In this document: positions 1 through 8,817 of the stretch, one piece after another
How positions within the stretch are numbered: position 1 is the first letter of the stretch
How the letters are laid out: each line of letters starts with the position of its first letter
Origin: Martelella limonii
GTDB lineage: Bacteria > Pseudomonadota > Alphaproteobacteria > Rhizobiales > Rhizobiaceae
Reading direction: 5' to 3'
Assembly: GCF_013344475.1 (NCBI RefSeq)
Contig: NZ_JABUOU010000003.1
Coordinates: 1 to 64,000, forward strand
DNA: 64,000 bases
Notes under the pieces: model-generated
Seen by the model: only the letters and a program-made list of their open reading frames with translations
What the model was told of the DNA's origin: nothing
The model's database searches: none
Made by a program: the position numbers and the translations under genes

Positions 1-183
1 CCATTGCCGACGCCGGCGTCGGCAATGGGTTCGATCAACCCCGCAAGAGCATGCGGCCAAGCCGCATGCCGCTTCCAGCCACCATCCCGCTCCGCGGGCA
101 ATCGCCAACGCTGGAAGGTTTCCGCCCAAGGCGGAAACAGACTCAGAATAAAGAGAGAGTGCGCCTGCATCGGCAGTGCCGAT
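1..183. repeat. Cluster of perfect hairpins
   Basis: Consecutive inverted repeats fill this stretch: a perfect 28-bp palindrome at 1-28; 9-bp arms 49-57/61-69 with loop CAA; 8-bp arms 72-79/110-117 enclosing 5-bp arms 86-90/94-98; 9-bp arms 118-126/130-138, again with loop CAA; and 7-bp arms 169-175/177-183. No coding sequence is supported here. The density of perfect arms, and two hairpins sharing the same loop, suggest a structured RNA, a REP-like element or a single-strand origin. The role is unknown. Confidence 0.7.
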
Positions 184-236
184 CCCGCGAAGGTTGGAAG
201 CTGAGCGATGCCGCGTGGTGTACGAAACTAAATTTT

Positions 237-652
237 CTGAAAAAGTTAGTTGGCACTCCGCCAACATTCTCCGCACAAAACCCGAAAGTATTTTTTTCGA
301 GAAAAAAAGGTTTGGAAAAAAGGGCGCGGCGGAGAGCCCGCCGCAAAAATTCTGGAAGAAAATGGTCGAAAACCGGCGCACAGGACACCAAAACCTTTTT
401 TTCTGAAAAAAGTTAGTCGGCGTTTTCCCCTCGCCGGGGGCCAGAAAAGCCAAAGGTAAATTATTTCAGAAAAAAGTTTGGGCAAAAAATTCGACGAGAG
501 CCCAAAACTGAAATTTATCGAAAGAAAATGGCTCGGGAACTGGCGCGAAGGAGATCAAAACCTTTTTTCTGAAAAAAAGTTAGTCGGAGCTTTCACCCTG
601 CGGAGCGCCCAAAAAACCAAACCAATATTTTTCAGAAAAAAAGATTTCGCGA
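237..652. repeat. Tandem imperfect repeat, period 166 bp, about 2.5 copies
   Basis: The motif TTTTCTGAAAAA followed by AGTTAG(T)CGG recurs with its CTGA at 237, 403 and 569, an exact spacing of 166 bp twice. Other shared blocks include a second AT dyad of the TTTCAGAAAAAA type in each unit, GAAAATGG followed by a GGCGC block, and a terminal CAAAACC. The third copy decays after about 652. Each unit carries two AT-rich dyads that are roughly reverse complements of each other, so a unit can fold on itself. The remaining 653-887 up to the relaxase stop shows nothing I recognise. Confidence 0.75.
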
Positions 653-887
653 CCATTGCTGACACGAAAGACCAACTCGGCTGGATCAAAATCTTTCGCG
701 GACACCCGCGCGAGCGGCAGGACGATGTCAAAATCGTTCAGTTAGATTCGCGTTTTCGGGATGTTTTCCGCCTTCAATCAAGCTCGCACTGCCGGCAAAA
801 ATCGCTGACGGAATATCCTCGTTTTGGAAATTCCCGCGCGCGTCAAAATCTCCAGCACCCCGAGCACCACCCGGGCCAATTGCAGCC

Positions 888-2900
888 TTAAAACCCCGGC
901 CCGTCATCTATGTCGTTGTCGTCATCAATCTCATTGTCGTTGTCGAAAGAATCCGGTTCCGGCTCGGAACGCAATGACAGCGGCATGCCATCAGTATCAA
1001 AATCCATTAATGTCTCGCCATCATAGAGCACATGACCGTCCTCAGTGTCGAAGCGAAGCCATTCCCTGCCTTCATGATGAACGAACGAGATGCGTGGATG
1101 AATGTTCGTGCGATCCTTCAAACTCAACACTCTTCGTATCAGATCCGCGCGGCTCAACTCGGCTGTCGTTCCGCCAAGGGTTGACCCAGTGCTGCGAGGA
1201 TCTTCTCCACGTTGGCGTTCAGCCTCTTCAGTTCGGCGTGCTGGTGCTTGACGACCGAGCCAATTGCCCGGACCACTTCGTGGAGTTCCATCTCGTTTTC
1301 TACCGTCTTGCTGAACACCTCCAGTTGAACGGCGATCGCTTCCACGGCTTGCGTGAACTCCATCAGCCGGTCGCCGACCTTCGGCTTTTCCATCTGCTCT
1401 ATCATTCGCTGCAGTGGCCCCGCCAAAGATGAGATCGTCATCAGGGCTTTCAGCATTTCGGGATCGCTTTTGAGAGGCGCGTTTTGTTCGTTCATTGATC
1501 ATCTCCAGTGTCTTGGCAATGCGTTTGAAACGCTCAAGTCCCACTCGCTCCAGTTCGCCAAGCAACAGAACTGTTGCCTGGTTGTGCCGCAAACGGTCCG
1601 CCATCATGCCCAGATGGTTTTTCAGTCCGGCAAGGAACTTTCGGGGGTCGAAATCTGGCTGAGGTACAGGAGTGACGGCATCATTTTCGTCTGCCAGGCC
1701 GTCAGTGCCTTCAAATCCGCCTTCAGCTCTTTGACCTCTGCCTCCAGCGCCGATATCCGCGATGCCTGCTCCTGCTCGCGTTGCTTCAGGCACGCGACCA
1801 ATTCTCGTTCCATTAGGCTCAGTGTTTTTTCCATGACGTGCTCCGGGGAGGAATTCTGGATGACAGGACGGAAGCGGAAGGCCGGGTCCGGCGAGAATGT
1901 CTTCTGGATCAGGGACGGGCTCTGGTGGATATCCATAGCGCTCGGCATTCATCTCGGCCCGCTTTTGCATGCCTTCGAGCAGTTGGCGCGGCGCCCGTTC
2001 AAGCTTTGCCGCGCGCTCTGCCCGATACGCGTCCTCGCTCATGCCGAGAAACGGCTTTCCATCGTCGAAATCCTTCGACATCCAATATCCGCTGATCGTG
2101 ATCGGGCGGTCGGCTATCGGATCGTAGATCGTCACCGATTGTGGATCGAAACTGATAACTTCAAGCCCATCCAGTTCCGCCGCTATATTGGCAAATATCG
2201 TATCGCGGTTGCGCGCACCACCTTCGCCCTGGTATTCGGCCAAGGTGGCGACTTCGGAGCTTTGCAGGCCTTTTCCGAAGACCAGATTTCTCCAGGCCTC
2301 GCTTCTCTGCTTCAATATCCAGTCCGCCAGGATAACCTTGCGCCTGCGCTCATACTCCAGTGGATCACTCCACCCGAACCTGCCGTTCAGCGTGTCACGA
2401 AACGCATCCCACAATTGCCTGCTGCCTTCTCTCGGCGGATGGGGGTTATAGGAAAGCAGCTTGCCGTTCGAAGCGCAGACGGCGCGCGGCATCAGAATAT
2501 TCACTTCGAGCCGACCAGTATGGGTGTGCGTGCCGACAAGCGGCTGGAAGCGCGCCGCGCGCGGTACCCCGGCATAGGCAACCTCATTGAAGAGCCGCAG
2601 CGCCTTGCCGACCTGATCACGCAACACCCGGTCTCCGGCGTTGAAAGCAGGGACCGGAATATCATCGGCGAGAAAGGACATCGTCATAGCGCTGTAGCGA
2701 TGCTTGTTGCGCAGCGAGCGCACGAGATCGCGCATCGGGTCGGCCTGACCAAGGAGAAGCTCCGGTGCAGGATCGCGACGGATCGTGACACGCTTTCCCT
2801 CGAGGTTCTTTCTCACCATCTTCTGCAGGTAGTAGATGATGGCTCGCAGCACCTCGCTATCGATCGTGCTCCCGGTATGGGGAGAAAAGCCGAAGATCAT
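888..2900 (-). CDS. Relaxase / mobilization nuclease
   Basis: Predicted to nick and covalently hold the transferred strand at oriT during mobilization. In this 670-residue protein the N-terminal 340 residues look like a relaxase. H125-T-H127 followed by N134 matches the HxH...N metal-binding motif, and Y23/Y24 are candidate nucleophiles. Residues about 345-600 are a low-complexity Gly/Arg/Asp-rich linker, and the C-terminus (after about 640) is strongly acidic. The start overlaps the stop of the MobC-like gene by 4 bp (ATGA), implying translational coupling. Two other reading frames inside the linker region look like genuine genes. The exact MOB class cannot be settled by eye. Confidence 0.78.
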   Translation of the reverse strand: MIFGFSPHTGSTIDSEVLRAIIYYLQKMVRKNLEGKRVTIRRDPAPELLLGQADPMRDLVRSLRNKHRYSAMTMSFLADDIPVPAFNAGDRVLRDQVGKALRLFNEVAYAGVPRAARFQPLVGTHTHTGRLEVNILMPRAVCASNGKLLSYNPHPPREGSRQLWDAFRDTLNGRFGWSDPLEYERRRKVILADWILKQRSEAWRNLVFGKGLQSSEVATLAEYQGEGGARNRDTIFANIAAELDGLEVISFDPQSVTIYDPIADRPITISGYWMSKDFDDGKPFLGMSEDAYRAERAAKLERAPRQLLEGMQKRAEMNAERYGYPPEPVPDPEDILAGPGLPLPSCHPEFLPGARHGKNTEPNGTRIGRVPEATRAGAGIADIGAGGRGQRAEGGFEGTDGLADENDAVTPVPQPDFDPRKFLAGLKNHLGMMADRLRHNQATVLLLGELERVGLERFKRIAKTLEMINERTKRASQKRSRNAESPDDDLIFGGATAANDRADGKAEGRRPADGVHASRGSDRRSTGGVQQDGRKRDGTPRSGPGNWLGRQAPARRTEEAERQRGEDPRSTGSTLGGTTAELSRADLIRRVLSLKDRTNIHPRISFVHHEGREWLRFDTEDGHVLYDGETLMDFDTDGMPLSLRSEPEPDSFDNDNEIDDDNDIDDGPGF
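1154..1495 (-). CDS. Overprinted small gene inside the relaxase gene (113 aa)
   Basis: Reads in a different frame from the relaxase, on the same strand, inside codons for relaxase residues about 469-582. ATG at 1495 has a GGAG Shine-Dalgarno 7 nt upstream. The product has ordinary globular/helical composition, with many heptad-like Leu/Ile/Val positions (for example EAIAVQLEVFSKTVENEMEL), whereas the overlapped relaxase segment is low-complexity. That contrast suggests this frame is the constrained one. Known precedent: IncQ plasmids encode mobB inside mobA in another frame. Function unknown; a relaxosome accessory role is inference. Confidence 0.6.
   Translation of the reverse strand: MNEQNAPLKSDPEMLKALMTISSLAGPLQRMIEQMEKPKVGDRLMEFTQAVEAIAVQLEVFSKTVENEMELHEVVRAIGSVVKHQHAELKRLNANVEKILAALGQPLAERQPS
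1622..1834 (-). CDS. Overprinted coiled-coil gene inside the relaxase gene (70 aa)
   Basis: Same strand as the relaxase but shifted frame (the same frame as the 1154-1495 gene), within codons for relaxase residues about 356-426. ATG at 1834 has GGAG 6 nt upstream; an in-frame ATG at 1948 is possible but lacks such a site. The protein is a clear coiled coil: Leu and Ile at heptad spacing across MERELVACLKQREQEQ and SALEAEVKELKADLKAL. The overlapped relaxase sequence is a Pro/Gly/Ala-rich linker. The composition argues for a real product, perhaps a relaxosome or coupling accessory protein. No family assignment can be made by eye. Confidence 0.6.
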   Translation of the reverse strand: MEKTLSLMERELVACLKQREQEQASRISALEAEVKELKADLKALTAWQTKMMPSLLYLSQISTPESSLPD

Positions 2901-3226
2901 CTTCCCCCTCCCTGACGCTGCAGGTCCGCGCAGAGCCGTTCGATTGCAACAAGCTCCAGAAGAAGGTCTGGGATCGCCGCATGCCCTTGACCGCGCAGCG
3001 CCGCGGCAACCTCGCCGAGCGCGATCTCGACCGCCTGTATGGCCGGCAGAATGCGAGCACCATCCGCCGGATTTGCCCCAGGCTGACTGCAGCAGCGGCG
3101 GACATATTCGGATATCGAAATACCACCTTTAGCTGCTGCCTTTTTCAAGGCCGCCCATGTCGCATCATCGACCTGGATCTCGCGTCTTCTGGCAATCTCA
3201 GCTTCTGCTTTACGCGGTCTCGCCAT
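2897..3226 (-). CDS. MobC-like relaxosome accessory protein
   Basis: A 109-residue basic protein beginning MARPRKAEAE, with a ribbon-helix-helix-like segment (REIQVDDATWAALKKAAAK then GISISEYVRR, residues about 15-45). MobC family proteins bind near oriT and help the relaxase melt and nick DNA. GAGG lies 8 nt before the ATG. It is the first gene of a two-gene mobilization unit and overlaps the relaxase start by 4 bp. Identification rests on the RHH-like N-terminus and the position directly upstream of a relaxase; another small DNA-binding regulator is possible. Confidence 0.7.
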   Translation of the reverse strand: MARPRKAEAEIARRREIQVDDATWAALKKAAAKGGISISEYVRRCCSQPGANPADGARILPAIQAVEIALGEVAAALRGQGHAAIPDLLLELVAIERLCADLQRQGGGR

Positions 3227-3512
3227 CGTACTATCCTCTCAGAAAGGCCAGAGCGGTCGCCGGGTTTCGCCCCCGGTGCTTTGCGGAGCCTTGATCTTTA
3301 TGGTCAGCGATTTCTGCGAAAAACCAAAACAGCTTTTGGAAAAAAGTTTCGGCGAGGTCAGAACAGGCACTCCAGGCTTTGAAAGCGTTGACGGAAATTC
3401 TCGCTTTTTCGTGTGCTTCAAGCCGAGAAATGGATGTTTTCGCAGTCCGCATTCAAAGTCGAAACACAACCTTGGAATGTTGCTCTCGTTAGCTTCACGG
3501 GTGTACTGATCG
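3227..3512. other. Intergenic region, candidate oriT
   Basis: A 286-bp gap between mobC (leftward) and the cargo gene (rightward). It contains inverted arms 3324-3329/3334-3339 followed by an A-run and GTTTCGG, resembling the AT-dyad part of the tandem repeat units at 237-652. Origins of transfer are usually just upstream of mobC, so this is the obvious place, but I cannot identify a nic site. Confidence 0.35.
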
Positions 3513-4640
3513 ATGGGCAAATCGCTCAAAAAAGACGCCCAGGGACCTCAGTGGATGCAGTTTCGACGCACGATCGGGATCGACTATTCGGGAGCTGAAA
3601 CGGCCGATTCAAGCCTCAAGGGCTTGCGCGTCTTCATGTCCGAAGACGGCGCCGAAGCGGCCGAGGTCCTGCCTCCTTCGGGAGCCGCAAAGCACTGGTC
3701 GCGTCGGCGCATGACGTCCTGGCTGATTGATCGCCTCAACGAACCTCTCCCGACAATCGTCGGGATCGATCATGCCTTTTCCTTCCCCGATGCCTATTTC
3801 AGGCGGCACGATCTCGCACCGGACTGGGATGCGTTTCTCGACGATTTTAGCCTTCACTGGCCCCTCGATGAACCGAACCTCTATGTCGATTTCGTGCGGT
3901 TTGGCAGCTTCGGCAACGGCGCCATGCGATCCGGCGAGCGGCGTTGGCGGCGGCTTTGCGAACAGGCCTCGCGTGCTAAATCGGTCTTTCATTTCGACGT
4001 CCCCGGCCAAGTCGCAAAGTCGACCCATAGCGGCCTGCCGTTTCTCAGGCAGATCCGGCAAGCATGTCCGGAACTGCACATCTGGCCTTTCGATGGCTGG
4101 GAGGTGCCCTCAGGACGCTCTTGTCTCGTGGAAGCCTATCCCCGCCTTTATGCCAGCCAATACGACAGGGCCGATCGAACCGAAGATCAGCACGACGCCT
4201 TCGCGATCGCATCCTGGCTGCGCGACGCCGACCAGCAAGGCACACTTGTTAACTCGCTCCAGCCTGACCTATCTGATCGGGCTCGCACAATGGCGAAACA
4301 TGAGGGGTGGATCATTGGCGTGGAGGAAGCGATGCCCGACAGGAAAGTGCATCCTCGTCGCCAAACCGCAAAGCCAGCACCTGAGCGGATGCACCAGCAG
4401 CATCCAGAACGCCAGCAGCAACACCGACATGCCAAGACAACGCGTCCCGGCTATCGCAATCGCAATGGGCAGATCGTCATTGCAGATACCGGTCTTCCCG
4501 GCACAGACCATAATCAGCGCATCTACCAGCTCTGCTGCGGCCGTTGCGGACACAATTATGGTGCGAACGGATCAGACATTCACCTGCGCAGATGTCCTGC
4601 CTGCGATGGCGGTAAGCCGGGCCTTCGGTACGGAGACTGA
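3513..4640 (+). CDS. DUF429-like RNase H-fold protein fused to a zinc ribbon
   Basis: Product of 375 residues. Residues about 18-270 look like the DUF429-type predicted nuclease fold: IGIDYSGAE (D24) starts the first strand, a second strand follows at IVGIDHAFSFP, and the Asp-rich segment TEDQHDAFAIASWL lies near the end of the domain. A His/Gln/Arg-rich linker (about 285-315) leads to a zinc ribbon with C342-x2-C345 and C361-x2-C364. No good Shine-Dalgarno is seen at ATG 3513; ATG 3555 is an alternative start just before the domain. It is the main cargo gene of the mobile element. The substrate is unknown; a defence or nucleic-acid processing role is inference from context and fold only. Confidence 0.55.
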   Translation: MGKSLKKDAQGPQWMQFRRTIGIDYSGAETADSSLKGLRVFMSEDGAEAAEVLPPSGAAKHWSRRRMTSWLIDRLNEPLPTIVGIDHAFSFPDAYFRRHDLAPDWDAFLDDFSLHWPLDEPNLYVDFVRFGSFGNGAMRSGERRWRRLCEQASRAKSVFHFDVPGQVAKSTHSGLPFLRQIRQACPELHIWPFDGWEVPSGRSCLVEAYPRLYASQYDRADRTEDQHDAFAIASWLRDADQQGTLVNSLQPDLSDRARTMAKHEGWIIGVEEAMPDRKVHPRRQTAKPAPERMHQQHPERQQQHRHAKTTRPGYRNRNGQIVIADTGLPGTDHNQRIYQLCCGRCGHNYGANGSDIHLRRCPACDGGKPGLRYGD

Positions 4641-4830
4641 TCGTTGGGGCGCTCCGGATCTCGCACATCACAATCTGCGAGCATGCCATTCTGCCCAAGC
4701 GCATCTTGCTCGACATAAGCCCAAAATAGCGGACTCCTAATGCGTTAGGACTTTTCCGTATAAAATCATACACTTGTCCACATTTCCGAGCTGATTTCCG
4801 TTGGAAATCTGTTGTTCTGATCGGGTACTA

Positions 4831-4858
4831 TGCCTCCATCAGCAACAGCGGAGGCATG
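4831..4858 (+). promoter_or_regulatory. Hairpin covering ribosome site and start codon
   Basis: Arms TGCCTCC (4831-4837) and GGAGGCA (4850-4856) with a 12-nt loop. The 3' arm contains the only GGAGG near the ATG at 4856 and includes the A of the start codon, so initiation would be occluded when folded. Confidence 0.4.
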
Positions 4859-5170
4859 TCCTCCATCGATAGAAGTGACTTGCAGCCTATGGCGCGAGAA
4901 CGGGAAAGCCATGCCGAAAGTGAGGCGGTGCGGGAGCGATCAGTTGCTCGTCCTCGCTTCGCCCGTCGCCCGGCAGCAACGGCATCGGAACGCGAGCGGC
5001 TGCAAACCGCCATCGAGACCATCGCCGCGCTCATGATCGATGATCCCGTCTACCTACCGATCTTCGAACGCCTGGAGCGTGAGATCGAGCTGGAGAGAAA
5101 CCGTGCCGACACAATGGCCCGCGCCCGCGCAGTCCTGCGTCAGAAAGAAATGGTACCTGCAAAACCTTGA
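4856..5170 (+). CDS. Small hypothetical protein (104 aa)
   Basis: I do not recognise the family. The N-terminal half is Arg/Ser/Glu-rich and probably disordered. Residues about 45-100 form a likely helical, charged segment (ERERLQTAIETIAALMIDD, then IFERLEREIELERNRADTM). It converges on the integrase gene with a 22-bp gap. The Shine-Dalgarno at ATG 4856 is only 1 nt away and lies in a hairpin, so translation may begin at a later Met (4889) or be regulated. The gene belongs to the mobile element. Confidence 0.5.
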   Translation: MSSIDRSDLQPMARERESHAESEAVRERSVARPRFARRPAATASERERLQTAIETIAALMIDDPVYLPIFERLEREIELERNRADTMARARAVLRQKEMVPAKP

Positions 5171-5192
5171 GCTACCTGCAACACTTGATCGC

Positions 5193-6458
5193 TCAAAATG
5201 CCAATGGCTGCAACAGATCACTCAATTGCTTCAGGCTCGCTCCGGCGCCATAGCGCTCTCTATTAAGGGCATGCCCCATCAGATCGCGGCGGATGCGCTC
5301 GTCAAGGCCAGCGGCCAGCATGCGATCCTCGAAGGAATGCCTCAGGCAATAAAGCGTGTGCTCTGCTGTTTCACACAAACCGTTTTCCCTGAGAAACTTG
5401 TTCACCGTACCACTCAGGCCCGCCGAACGCGTCTGGTACCTTGAAAAGCCGTCCGGGAACGGCCTCATGGCCTCAAGAGAAACGCCGATCAGGGGTATGA
5501 CACGTCTTGCATTGCCGCTCTTCAGCTTCCGACCGATCGGCTTGATCGAAATGTGAGGAATATTGGCATCTAGATGGATCTCTTCTGGAGTGAGGCCTGC
5601 AAGTTCACTCGGTCTTGCGCCGGTATTGATCATGACGAGAAGAATTGCCCGCGCCTGCTCATTCAACCCGTCAAGCGCGCCAGGCCGCAATAACTGATCC
5701 CGGATCCAGGCATGTGAGAAAGGTGGCCGGGTCTTGGCCTCGCCGGATTTCAGGGCAATATCCGTGAAGGGCAGAACGAGACCCAGTCTCTTCATGCGGC
5801 TCACAGTCTTGAGCACGTCGCCAAGATGCATGAAGTCCTTGTTGGCTGTGTCGGGCGATATGTCCTCGATATCGACCCGCTCCACCCACCACGCACGAAA
5901 ATCCAGCATGACGTCGCCGGAAATTTCGTTCAGGGGAAGGTTTCCGCAAACCGAGATGAAATTCCTGACGGCCTTGATCCGAGGGTTGCGCCATCGGCGC
6001 AATTGATCTTCACTCTTGCCAACTATTCTATCTTTCGCCAGCGGCCAGTAGAGTTCGAGGGCGCGCTCGACCGAAATGAGAGGTTCGGCAACGCCGCCCA
6101 GCAAAGCGGCCGCTTCCTGTGGCGCGTGCCGTTGGTCTGCTACGGTTTCGATGCGCTCCAGCAGTTCGGCTCTGGGAAGTTGGGCGACCTTCTCTGCCGT
6201 GAGATAGCGATAGCCGCGCCGCTGGGCCAGTTCTGCAGCTGCCTGAAACCGCGCCTCGGCATCATCGGTATCGCCCGCAAGTCGGGCTTCCCAGGCTTCG
6301 ATCTGCTCGGCCCATATCAACGGTGCCTTGGCCTTGGCCTGTGTCTCGGAATCAGTATGGAGGCTCAGCCAGATTTCGCTACGACTTTCGACCGGCGCAA
6401 AGCGCTTCGGGACACGCCGCCGGATATAGAATACCGATCCTCTTCGCATAAGCGGCAT
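5193..6458 (-). CDS. Tyrosine recombinase (integrase)
   Basis: Site-specific recombinase that would integrate and excise the element at the tRNA. Of 421 residues, about 1-120 are the arm-binding/N-terminal region, 125-235 the SAM-like core-binding domain and 245-421 the catalytic domain. R282 in INTGARPSEL, K311/K313, R373 in LYCLRHSF, H396 in LMGH and nucleophile Y403 in ERYGAG are visible. Y370 occupies the place of the usual first His of HxLR, which may be normal for this subfamily. Start ATG 6458 has GGGAG 7 nt upstream. It is transcribed away from the tRNA 3' end, 142 bp from it. Confidence 0.92.
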   Translation of the reverse strand: MPLMRRGSVFYIRRRVPKRFAPVESRSEIWLSLHTDSETQAKAKAPLIWAEQIEAWEARLAGDTDDAEARFQAAAELAQRRGYRYLTAEKVAQLPRAELLERIETVADQRHAPQEAAALLGGVAEPLISVERALELYWPLAKDRIVGKSEDQLRRWRNPRIKAVRNFISVCGNLPLNEISGDVMLDFRAWWVERVDIEDISPDTANKDFMHLGDVLKTVSRMKRLGLVLPFTDIALKSGEAKTRPPFSHAWIRDQLLRPGALDGLNEQARAILLVMINTGARPSELAGLTPEEIHLDANIPHISIKPIGRKLKSGNARRVIPLIGVSLEAMRPFPDGFSRYQTRSAGLSGTVNKFLRENGLCETAEHTLYCLRHSFEDRMLAAGLDERIRRDLMGHALNRERYGAGASLKQLSDLLQPLAF

Positions 6459-6489
6459 CGCATGCTCCCGTCAGAAAAGTGGAGCAGAA

Positions 6490-6509
6490 TGTGTAGCACA
6501 TCGTGTAGC
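6490..6509. repeat. Direct repeat pair near attachment site
   Basis: GTGTAGCA occurs at 6490-6497 and 6502-6509 (12-bp period) between the integrase start and the tRNA 3' end. Short phased direct repeats in this position are typical arm-type integrase or excisionase sites; that assignment is inference. Confidence 0.35.
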
Positions 6510-6599
6510 AGAAATGAAGAATCGCGTAAGGCAGTAAACGGCACAAAAGTCTAAGAGATTGATATTAAGACGAAATTTAACATGAGCTATAAAGTTTAA

Positions 6600-6689
6600 T
6601 GGCGGACAGAGAGGGATTCGAACCCTCGATACGGTTTCCCGTATACACGCGTTCCAGGCGTGCGCCTTCAACCACTCGGCCACCTGTCC
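6600..6689 (-). tRNA. tRNA-Ser (GGA)
   Basis: The reverse complement folds as a class II tRNA. The acceptor GGACAGG pairs with the 3' TCTGTCC, followed by discriminator G and encoded CCA (6602-6600). The D arm begins GGCCGAGTGG, the anticodon loop reads CTGGAAC (anticodon GGA, serine), a long variable arm TACGGGAAACCGTA follows, and the T loop is GGTTCGAATCC. Its 3' end is the integration site of the element to the left, and the gene is kept intact. Confidence 0.95.
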
Positions 6690-6828
6690 TTCCAATGCCA
6701 GCTTCGTGAAGCGGCGGGAACGGCGCGATATATACCGATGAACGGGCGATGATCAACCCGAATTTGTCAGATTTCTGAAATGACTGGCGCGATGGCCGCG
6801 CTGATCGCAGCGTTTGGGCCTTTGCCCC

Positions 6829-6854
6829 GGAACCGCTGCTTGTCTGAAGGCGTT
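6829..6854 (+). promoter_or_regulatory. EcfG-type stress promoter for msrA
   Basis: GGAAC at 6829-6833, a 17-nt spacer and CGTT at 6851-6854 match the alphaproteobacterial general-stress sigma factor consensus GGAAC-N16/17-CGTT. The predicted start of transcription is about 80 nt before the msrA ATG. Confidence 0.55.
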
Positions 6855-6939
6855 TCCATGCCTATCTATTGGCCATGTTTCGCCGGCCGTCGCAATGGAT
6901 GCGTGAAAGGCACGGCGCTCTCGATCAAAGGAGAATCAC

Positions 6940-7590
6940 ATGTTTCTCTCGACCTTCAAGAAGGAAAAGACCACGCTGCCGACCACGGAGACGGCGCTTC
7001 CCGGCCGTTCCGAACCGATCCCCACGGCGCGCGAACACTTCGTCAGCGGGCGCAGCCTTGCCCCGCCCTATCCTGCCCACCTGAAGGAAGTCATGCTCGG
7101 CATGGGCTGTTTCTGGGGCGCTGAGCGGCTTTTGTGGCAGACGCCGGGTGTCTACGTGACGGTCGCCGGCTATTCCGGCGGGATCACGCCTAACCCGACC
7201 TATGAGGAAACCTGCACGGGCCTCACGGGCCACACCGAAGTTGTGCGCGTCGTCTACGATCCGACCGAGGTCAGCCTCGAACAATTGCTCGCGATCTTCT
7301 TCGAGGCCCATGACCCGACCCAGGGCATGCGCCAGGGCAATGACATCGGCACCACCTACCGCTCCGCGATCTATCTCGAAAGCGAAGAGGACATGGAGCT
7401 TGCCGAGACGGTCCGCGACCGGTTCCAGCAGGCCCTGAAGGACAGCGGACGCGGCGACGTCATCACCACCGAGATCACCCGCGCGCAGGAATTCTATCCG
7501 GCCGAGGATTACCACCAGCAATATCTGGCGAAAAACCCCGCGGGCTATTGCGGGCTGCGCGGCACAGGCGTTTCCTGCCCGATCGGCTGA
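6940..7590 (+). CDS. msrA: Peptide methionine sulfoxide reductase MsrA
   Basis: Reduces methionine S-sulfoxide in oxidised proteins with thioredoxin as reductant. The 216-residue protein has the signature GMGCFWGAE with catalytic C57, and C204 and C213 near the C-terminus as resolving cysteines. The family core includes [16 protein letters not shown] and DYHQQYL. An N-terminal extension of about 45 residues before the core is common in alphaproteobacteria. Start ATG 6940 is preceded by AAGGAG. The gene stands alone after the tRNA, with an EcfG-type promoter upstream and an intrinsic terminator downstream, fitting a general stress repair role. Confidence 0.95.
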
Positions 7591-7619
7591 CCTGCCGGAG
7601 CCGCTTGAAAAGCATATGG

Positions 7620-7650
7620 AAAAGGGAGCCCTAGCGCTCCCTTTTCGTTT
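7620..7650 (+). terminator. Intrinsic terminator after msrA
   Basis: Arms AAAAGGGAGC (7620-7629) and GCTCCCTTTT (7636-7645) with a 6-nt loop; the 3' arm itself ends in a T-run. It lies 30 bp after the msrA stop. Confidence 0.8.
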
Positions 7651-7696
7651 GTCCCCAGGCAAGGCCCGCACTGTTCCGTATTTTTACCCTTCGGGC

Positions 7697-7719
7697 AAAT
7701 TTTGTGGTGAAATTTTGTG
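7697..7719 (+). promoter_or_regulatory. Tandem direct repeat upstream of nucleoside operon
   Basis: AAATTTTGTG occurs at 7697-7706 and 7710-7719, a 13-bp period, about 105 bp before the first gene of the nucleoside uptake operon. Possible regulator binding site or part of the promoter. Confidence 0.4.
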
Positions 7720-7824
7720 TGAGCCGTGCAACCATGACAGCAGGGCCGGCCGTCAAGCGCCGGCAACCTTCCCGGATATCGGCCGGGATTTCAGGTTTTC
7801 ACGCACAGGGAACAGAGCTGCAAT

Positions 7825-8817
7825 ATGAAAAAGACGATTTTGAGCCTTATGGCTGTAGCCGCCATGTCGACCACCGCACTGGCCGCCGATTTCAAGCCGG
7901 CGCTGGTTTACGGCACCGGCGGCAAGTTCGACAAATCCTTCAACGAGTCCGGTTACAACGGCGCGGAAAAGTTCAAGGCCGATACCGGCGTAGACTACCG
8001 CGACTTCGAGCCGACCGGCGACGCCCAGGGCGAACAGGCGATCCTCAACTTCGCGTCGATGGGCTTCAGCCCGATCGTCGCTCTGTCCTTTGCCTGGAAA
8101 TCGGCCGTCGAAAAGATCGCGCCGCAGTTCCCCGACACCCAGTTCTACATCGTCGATGACGTCGTCGATGCGCCGAACGTCCAGTCCGTCGTCTTCAAGG
8201 AAGAACAGGGTTCCTACCTTGTCGGCCTTCTCGGCGCGATGAAATCGGAAACCGGCACGGTCGGCTTCGTCGGCGGCATGGACATTCCGCTGATCCACAA
8301 GTTCGGCTGCGGCTATGCGCAGGGCGCGCATGCGGCAAATGACAACGTCAAGGTCGTCACCAACTTCGTCGGCACCACCGGCGCCGCCTGGAACGACCCG
8401 GTCAAGGCAGGCGAGCTGACCAAGAACCAGATGGACCAGGGCGCCGACGTGATCTATGCGGCAGCCGGCGCATCCGGTCTCGGCGTTCTCCAGGCTGCGG
8501 CCGATGCCGACAAGTATTCGATCGGCGTCGATTCCAACCAGAACTACGTCCATCCGGGTTCGGTGCTGACATCGATGGTCAAGCGCGTCGACAACGCTGT
8601 CTATGACGCCTTCAAGGGCAGCCAGGACGGTTCGTTCAAGGCCGGCGTCAACAGCCTGGGCGTTGCCGAAAACGGCGTGGGCTGGGCCTATGACGACGAC
8701 AACAAGCCGCTGATCACCGAAGAGATGCTGGCCGCGGTCGAAAAGGCCAAGGAAGGCATCGTTTCCGGCGAGATCGAGGTTCACGACTACTCGGTCGACA
8801 ACACCTGCCCCTATTGA
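7825..8817 (+). CDS. BMP-family nucleoside-binding protein of ABC transporter
   Basis: Periplasmic substrate-binding component of a BmpA/Med-family ABC importer, which takes up purine or other nucleosides. A 330-residue precursor with a signal peptide of about 20 residues (cleavage after TTALA) and no lipobox Cys. Family features include GGKFDKSFNESGYNGAEKF, GFSPIVALSF and a C-terminal GVDSNQ segment. It is followed by a strong terminator-like hairpin and then the ATPase and permease genes, an arrangement that yields more binding protein than membrane components. The salvage genes downstream (cdd, punA, deoC, deoA) support nucleosides as substrates. Confidence 0.9.
   Translation: MKKTILSLMAVAAMSTTALAADFKPALVYGTGGKFDKSFNESGYNGAEKFKADTGVDYRDFEPTGDAQGEQAILNFASMGFSPIVALSFAWKSAVEKIAPQFPDTQFYIVDDVVDAPNVQSVVFKEEQGSYLVGLLGAMKSETGTVGFVGGMDIPLIHKFGCGYAQGAHAANDNVKVVTNFVGTTGAAWNDPVKAGELTKNQMDQGADVIYAAAGASGLGVLQAAADADKYSIGVDSNQNYVHPGSVLTSMVKRVDNAVYDAFKGSQDGSFKAGVNSLGVAENGVGWAYDDDNKPLITEEMLAAVEKAKEGIVSGEIEVHDYSVDNTCPY

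Follow-up and report, generated by a model that had tools for sequence, protein, structure and literature searches.

The window, that is, the whole stretch of 64,000 nucleotides of Martelella limonii DNA that was analysed, carries a mobilization locus close to its first base. Its parts, all on the reverse strand, are listed in the direction of transcription:

6689..6600, (-) strand: tRNA-Ser(GGA), probable attachment site
6458..5193, (-) strand: tyrosine recombinase (DUF6538 + Phage_integrase) that is probably the integrase of the element
3295..3270, (-) strand: conserved GC-rich block, non-coding and ahead of mobC; a candidate oriT or MobC operator
3226..2897, (-) strand: MobC/MbeC-like ribbon-helix-helix protein of 109 aa, whose gene shares 4 nt with the start of the relaxase gene
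2900..888, (-) strand: MOBP(HEN)/MbeA-like relaxase of 670 aa with the motif HTHTGRLEVN
1844..1841, (-) strand: GGAG 6 nt ahead of the ATG of D, its candidate ribosome-binding site
1834..1622, (-) strand: D, nested coiled-coil-like gene of 70 aa in frame +1 of the relaxase, MbeD-like
1506..1503, (-) strand: GGAG 7 nt ahead of the ATG of X, its candidate ribosome-binding site
1495..1154, (-) strand: X, a further nested gene (113 aa, frame +1 of the relaxase) whose product is probably helical and of no known family

The original prediction had placed a coiled-coil gene of 70 aa, overprinted in a shifted frame on the same strand and preceded by GGAG, inside a linker of the relaxase. This frame was recovered, running from ATG to TGA in frame +1 relative to the relaxase gene, and the comparisons below support the overprinting, but the description was incomplete, since X is a second gene in the same shifted frame. 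Judged by eye, Gly, Ala, and Arg were abundant in the relaxase frame across D. When the codons of the whole relaxase gene were shuffled synonymously, a frame +1 ORF with an ATG and at least 70 codons appeared in 4852 of 5000 shuffles, and the D stretch itself remained open in 1287. ORFs of at least 113 codons in either shifted frame were present in 1577 of 5000 shuffles, and D and X were jointly open in 563. Long frame +1 ORFs are common in such shuffles, and ORF length was therefore given no weight as evidence.

Conservation of the nested frames

The test set consisted of 11 loci, the window and ten close full-length ones, comprising both copies of genome G005, single copies from G006, G008, G002, G003, and G007, and three P. 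yeei plasmids, with a fourth P. yeei match (H3) left out. The relaxase frame was open in all 11. In the frame +1 geometry, the third codon position of the relaxase (p3) is the second position of the nested codon, and the first position (p1) is the nested wobble position. Synonymous variation had been predicted to be depressed in D, and this was found: between the window and its nearest relative G005, p3 differed at 13/64 codons in D and 38/110 in X, compared with 271/475 codons outside the nested genes (p = 2e-8 for D and 2e-5 for X, taking sites as independent). Within three groups of close relatives, without the window, the variable sites at p1/p2/p3 numbered 24/11/3 of 330 codons in X, 10/2/6 of 128 in D, and 78/60/168 of 1509 outside, and the Fisher test of p3 inside versus outside, again with sites taken as independent, gave p = 8e-12 for X and 0.024 for D. 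The within-group support for D alone is thus modest. In pairwise comparisons, more changes fell in the relaxase frame than in the nested frame for 11 of the 12 X pairs and for 3 of the 6 D pairs; of the other D pairs, two were ties and one was reversed. Between the window and P. yeei, the D stretch had no clear depression of p3 (p1/p2/p3 0.67/0.51/0.61), as expected if both frames have diverged far.

The nested products were also compared with a null in which codons were resampled while both relaxase proteins were kept, with 1000 trials per comparison and the alignment of the nested products as the score. For D, the score was 187 between the window and G005 (null maximum 78) and 65 between the window and P. 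yeei (null maximum 52). The corresponding X scores were 196 for G005, 108 for G008, and 120 for P. yeei, with null maxima of 70, 52, and 55, so that the nested products beat all 1000 resamplings in five of five comparisons. Over the same bases, 43 of 63 residues were alike in the D products of the window and G005, versus 27 in the relaxase frame. The 40-codon gap between D and X was flat in the window/G005 comparison (p1/p2/p3 = 19/18/18), with no clear sign that the relaxase frame is again the constrained one. After X, third positions were again the highest (27/26/48 of 77 codons), as in an ordinary relaxase.

Start signals were examined in the same 11 loci. A GGAG, AGGA, or GAGG ending 4–8 nt before the start was present at all 18 nested starts (7 of D and 11 of X), and such a site preceded 22 of the 399 other same-strand ATGs in these relaxase genes. 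For the pair of OXR plasmids from Sulfitobacter, the spacing at D is 9 nt, outside the 4–8 nt range. At X, a good site precedes an ATG further upstream, and in one of the two plasmids the annotated start is a later TTG with no such site. Taken as predicted proteins, both nested frames are shown by these comparisons to be conserved, each with a Shine-Dalgarno-like site, and the relaxase frame stays open through both.

Three other explanations of these patterns were weighed. That D and X are spurious open frames, conserved only through the relaxase protein or codon bias, would fit the frequency of long frame +1 ORFs in the shuffles, but the scores above every relaxase-preserving resampling, the depressed third positions inside D and X, and the start signals at 18/18 nested starts all speak against it. 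Moreover, in relatives that have no D, the equivalent stretch varied as ordinary relaxase (p1/p2/p3 = 3/4/9 of 55 codons). The shuffle, resampling, and third-position results have already largely refuted this explanation, which we consider extremely improbable. A conserved RNA or DNA signal encoding no protein could likewise lower third-position variation, and overlap regions can hold signals too; against this, the changes track the nested codons, with the wobble position of X the most variable and its second position the least, X protein identity is retained out to P. yeei at 24–25%, and the tRNA was the sole Rfam match in 1..8000 at gathering thresholds. Such a signal in place of the proteins is very unlikely. 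The excess of relaxase-frame over nested changes in X would also fit a relaxase whose C-terminal half has decayed, with only the nested genes translated past about 1067 nt. The relaxase frame is nevertheless open at every close locus, and the third positions following X are again the most different, which makes decay an improbable account.

Relaxase type and comparison with known systems

The relaxase matched the MbeA model NF047848 with E = 5.9e-12 and 45.5 bits, below the cut-off of 500, and the MobC/MbeC-like protein reached 25.5 bits with PF21983, below the cut-off of 27. Motif III of the relaxase, HTHTGRLEVN, aligned with HQDKGRLELN of ColE1, and the HEN motif is present; among nine rows compared, the N of HEN was replaced by H in L049, L052, and L055. 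One N-terminal Y column was common to all 23 aligned relaxases and is a candidate for the catalytic tyrosine.

IncQ plasmids (RSF1010) carry the accessory gene mobB overprinted in the relaxase gene mobA, and the original prediction had cited this pair as the precedent while expecting a different relaxase type. The difference in type held up and the precedent did not. A passage of one source names HEN as the defining motif of its subgroup and assigns RSF1010 MobA to MOBQ (PMC12857230), in contrast to the HEN motif of ColE1 MbeA found in the window relaxase. Nesting of the IncQ type was rejected on the HEN motif and the MbeA similarity.

In the ColE1 record, MbeB and MbeD are encoded in frame +1 of mbeA, and a mobC-type gene precedes the relaxase. 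The overlap of mbeA with mbeB and mbeD is described in part of PMC6118388, and an excerpt of PMC9282650 gives coordinates for "internally encoded MobB and MobD" in a ColE-type plasmid. Given the HEN motif, the MbeA match, and the frame of mbeB and mbeD within mbeA, the nesting corresponds to the known ColE1 scheme. The window locus shares with ColE1 a ribbon-helix-helix (MobC) gene overlapping the relaxase start, a HEN-type relaxase, and small genes nested in frame +1. It differs in that ColE1 has the order B then D, whereas D is followed by X here and MbeB was not found, in that its relaxase falls in a separate supported branch, and in that the locus is tied to an integrase and a tRNA. Alphaproteobacterial MOBP5(HEN) relaxases with overlapping mobA, mobB, and mobC are described for the Paracoccus plasmids pMARC2 and pAES4 in a section of PMC3832669; unlike the window, another plasmid, of P. 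marcusii (L068), nests a B-like and then a D-like ORF and belongs to the ColE1 side of the tree.

A maximum-likelihood tree of 31 relaxase N-termini, rooted at the midpoint and with long branches flagged by the program, resolved two branches (supports 98/98 and 98/95), one comprising 12 relaxases, that of ColE1 among them, and the other 17, including that of the window. In the ColE1 branch, 10 of the 12 loci were labelled B then D, L051 having D with B cut and L053 B with D cut; the nested labels were assigned by us, and most of the labelled rows are themselves part of the B and D profiles and match by construction. Members of the window branch had D and X, X, or a frame weakly like X, and MbeB was not found among the nested frames of the fetched loci of this branch. 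L055 and L060 fell outside both branches, on long branches of their own. A truncated relaxase copy of 195 aa lies behind a mobC-like gene at 3764-4351 of L048 (G002); this genome also has a full-length copy, and L048 was left out of the alignments and the tree. Contig C22 of G000 carries, near 318514, a second MbeA-like relaxase (L056 3426-5057), and the ORFs nested in its frame +1 are MbeB-like and MbeD-like.

D compared with MbeD

A profile was built from 11 MbeD-like nested proteins chosen by position and motif. D was the best of 1169 window segments against it, with an E value of 0.0077 that is weak for a coiled coil, and the profile comparison of D with the MbeD-like set gave a probability of 85% (83% with other rows). 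Against the MbeD-like profile, copies of D reached 1.8e-5 and 5.5e-5 in the Sulfitobacter OXR plasmids and 7e-4 to 6e-3 in P. yeei. The profile is not specific for D, since for G005 and G006 it favoured X (E 0.011-0.044) over D (0.15 and 0.2 where listed). PF04899 and NF033829 were absent among the matches of D at E ≤ 1 and at 0.1; the nested gene of L052 is matched by both (E = 3.4e-18 and 1.5e-20, respectively). Since no curated cut-off was reached, D is called MbeD-like and is not filed as a member of MbeD. The distant relaxase L055 (G1038) contains a different coiled-coil-like frame +1 ORF of 158 aa, with a weak match to the MbeD-like profile (E 0.0096).

These scores leave room for D being an unrelated coiled coil that arose at this locus, its likeness to MbeD being one of coiled-coil composition. 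The lack of a match to any curated MbeD model points that way, as do the preference of the MbeD-like profile for X in G005 and G006, the match of the X profile to ColE1 MbeD at 3.3e-4, a coiled-coil cross-match, and the nearly equal matches of the D profile to the MbeB-like and MbeD-like segments of P. marcusii (0.0024 and 0.0029). On the other side, the likeness extends over an N-terminal motif, LSxxERxL versus LTPxERxL, whose position within the nested protein and whose reading frame are shared, and the Sulfitobacter OXR copies bridge the two (MTSRLTPMERALLDMVEQ). An independent origin of D appears doubtful to us, if with an appreciable chance of being correct. By its predicted protein, D weakly resembles MbeD.

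The second nested gene X

As a predicted protein, X is better supported than D. No family was found above a curated cut-off, the Pfam and NCBIfam matches to both D and X being weak and below threshold, and no paper describing X was found in the literature searches. A single-sequence fold consisted of three helices at low confidence (mean pLDDT 63.7), and X had no membrane helix as judged by eye. Identity with MbeB was ruled out, as the probability against the MbeB profile was 0.8% and X lies downstream of D.

A search of PLSDB with the X protein returned four records, all of P. yeei. Within the class, 289 genomes were searched for X, which was matched in the own genome and weakly in one other (G1048, E = 8e-4). 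The X profile matched the second nested ORFs of the OXR plasmids (4.6e-10 and 6.6e-10). A nested frame weakly like X is present in four other Sulfitobacter plasmids (E 4.6e-5, 6.2e-4, 0.016, and 0.018), and neither the D nor the X profile had a match inside the relaxase of P. aminovorans (L060).

Distribution of the relaxase and of D

Genomes with a match to the relaxase protein numbered 7 of 13 in the genus, 15 of 394 in the family, 11 of 397 in the order, and 3 of 385 in the class, these draws overlapping and each counting the own genome. The relaxase protein search of PLSDB returned 737 records. The DNA of the mob region had no match in PLSDB, and a pattern scan of the genome contigs with the relaxase found no relative. 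From these searches, 16 stretches from genomes and 15 plasmid regions (of the 737 plasmid records) were compared. Plasmid neighbours pointed to a probable alphaproteobacterial host.

By profile, D occurs in 3 of the 13 genomes of the genus, the own one included. The P. yeei copies are rows of the D profile; the Sulfitobacter OXR copies are not, and match it weakly (E 0.0023 and 0.004). A shifted frame lost from homologs with an open relaxase frame had been named as evidence against the nested gene. This state was found in part: four of the 11 close loci (G008, G002, G003, and G007) have an open relaxase and X but no D, while the other seven conserve D. Because of the latter, we read the four as a branch in which D is absent or was lost.

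Genomic setting

The recombinase gene lies 141 nt from tRNA-Ser, and the mob operon is on the same strand. Close integrase copies were found in only 2 of 17 fetched loci searched, G003 and contig C26 of G005, where they are 83% and 80% identical and lie 141-142 nt from tRNA-Ser, beside mob genes and with the relaxase on the same strand. According to part of PMC5704250, sites such as tRNA 3' ends are used by most integrative mobilizable elements that have a single tyrosine recombinase. The nearby recombinase and tRNA-Ser suggest that the mob operon is carried by a putative element of this kind at tRNA-Ser. The other end of the element and its attachment repeats were looked for and not found. 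The 3' end of the tRNA had no further exact match in the genome, where one site with two mismatches lies on C37. The contig starts at base 1 of the window, and the far end may lie beyond it.

For the candidate oriT or MobC operator, the written motif was present in 4 of 21 loci scanned (the window, both G005 copies, and G006), which are the loci it was drawn from; similar blocks upstream of mobC were seen by eye in G008, G002, G003, G007, and P. yeei. An ORF of 375 aa between mobC and the integrase (3513-4640) belongs to no Pfam family at threshold and has a weak zinc-ribbon likeness at its C-terminus. Downstream of the relaxase, positions 272-647 contain four imperfect AT-rich repeats of 42 nt and several inverted pairs of the TTTTTTCTGAAAAAA type.

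Proposed organization and function

We read the locus, at a probability of about 0.83, as a ColE1-type mobilization operon composed of mobC, the relaxase, and two small genes nested in frame +1, probably residing on an integrative mobilizable element at tRNA-Ser. The arrangement has long been known from the ColE1 plasmid family; what is found here is a divergent version with a second nested protein that has no known relative.

Ribosomes would start internally at the two GGAG sites on the mobC-relaxase mRNA, and D and X would be made beside the relaxase, so that the accessory proteins would always travel with the enzyme they serve. Over D and X, the relaxase residues would serve as a tolerant linker joining the nicking domain to the C-terminal region. 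As a coiled-coil oligomer, D could do the job of MbeD as a transfer accessory, perhaps with mild exclusion of related elements. MbeD is described as responsible for exclusion in a portion of PMC2831885; a passage of PMC11493245 states that it has no identified target and puts the exclusion reading in doubt. For X, the place beside the C-terminal region of the relaxase suggests a relaxosome or coupling function, and it may act as a helical accessory of this kind in a branch where MbeB, the membrane protein of the ColE1 branch, was not found. More tentatively, and with the odds somewhat against it, X might be a new protein family born or recruited inside the relaxase linker and replacing MbeB in one HEN branch, in which case the linker would be a recurrent site where accessory genes are overprinted, kept, and lost (B and D, D and X, or X alone).

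D thereby moves from an odd one-off to part of a recognisable operon scheme whose nested content varies by branch. The natural series of B+D, D+X, and X only offers material on the gain, retention, and loss of overlapping genes and on the contribution of MbeB and MbeD to mobilization. Nested relaxase loci are also prone to poor annotation. For the P. yeei plasmids L003, L057, and L058, the PLSDB gene table lists nested and reverse-strand ORFs and omits the enclosing relaxase, which may be an annotation error or a gap in the table, from which mbeA of ColE1 is missing as well.
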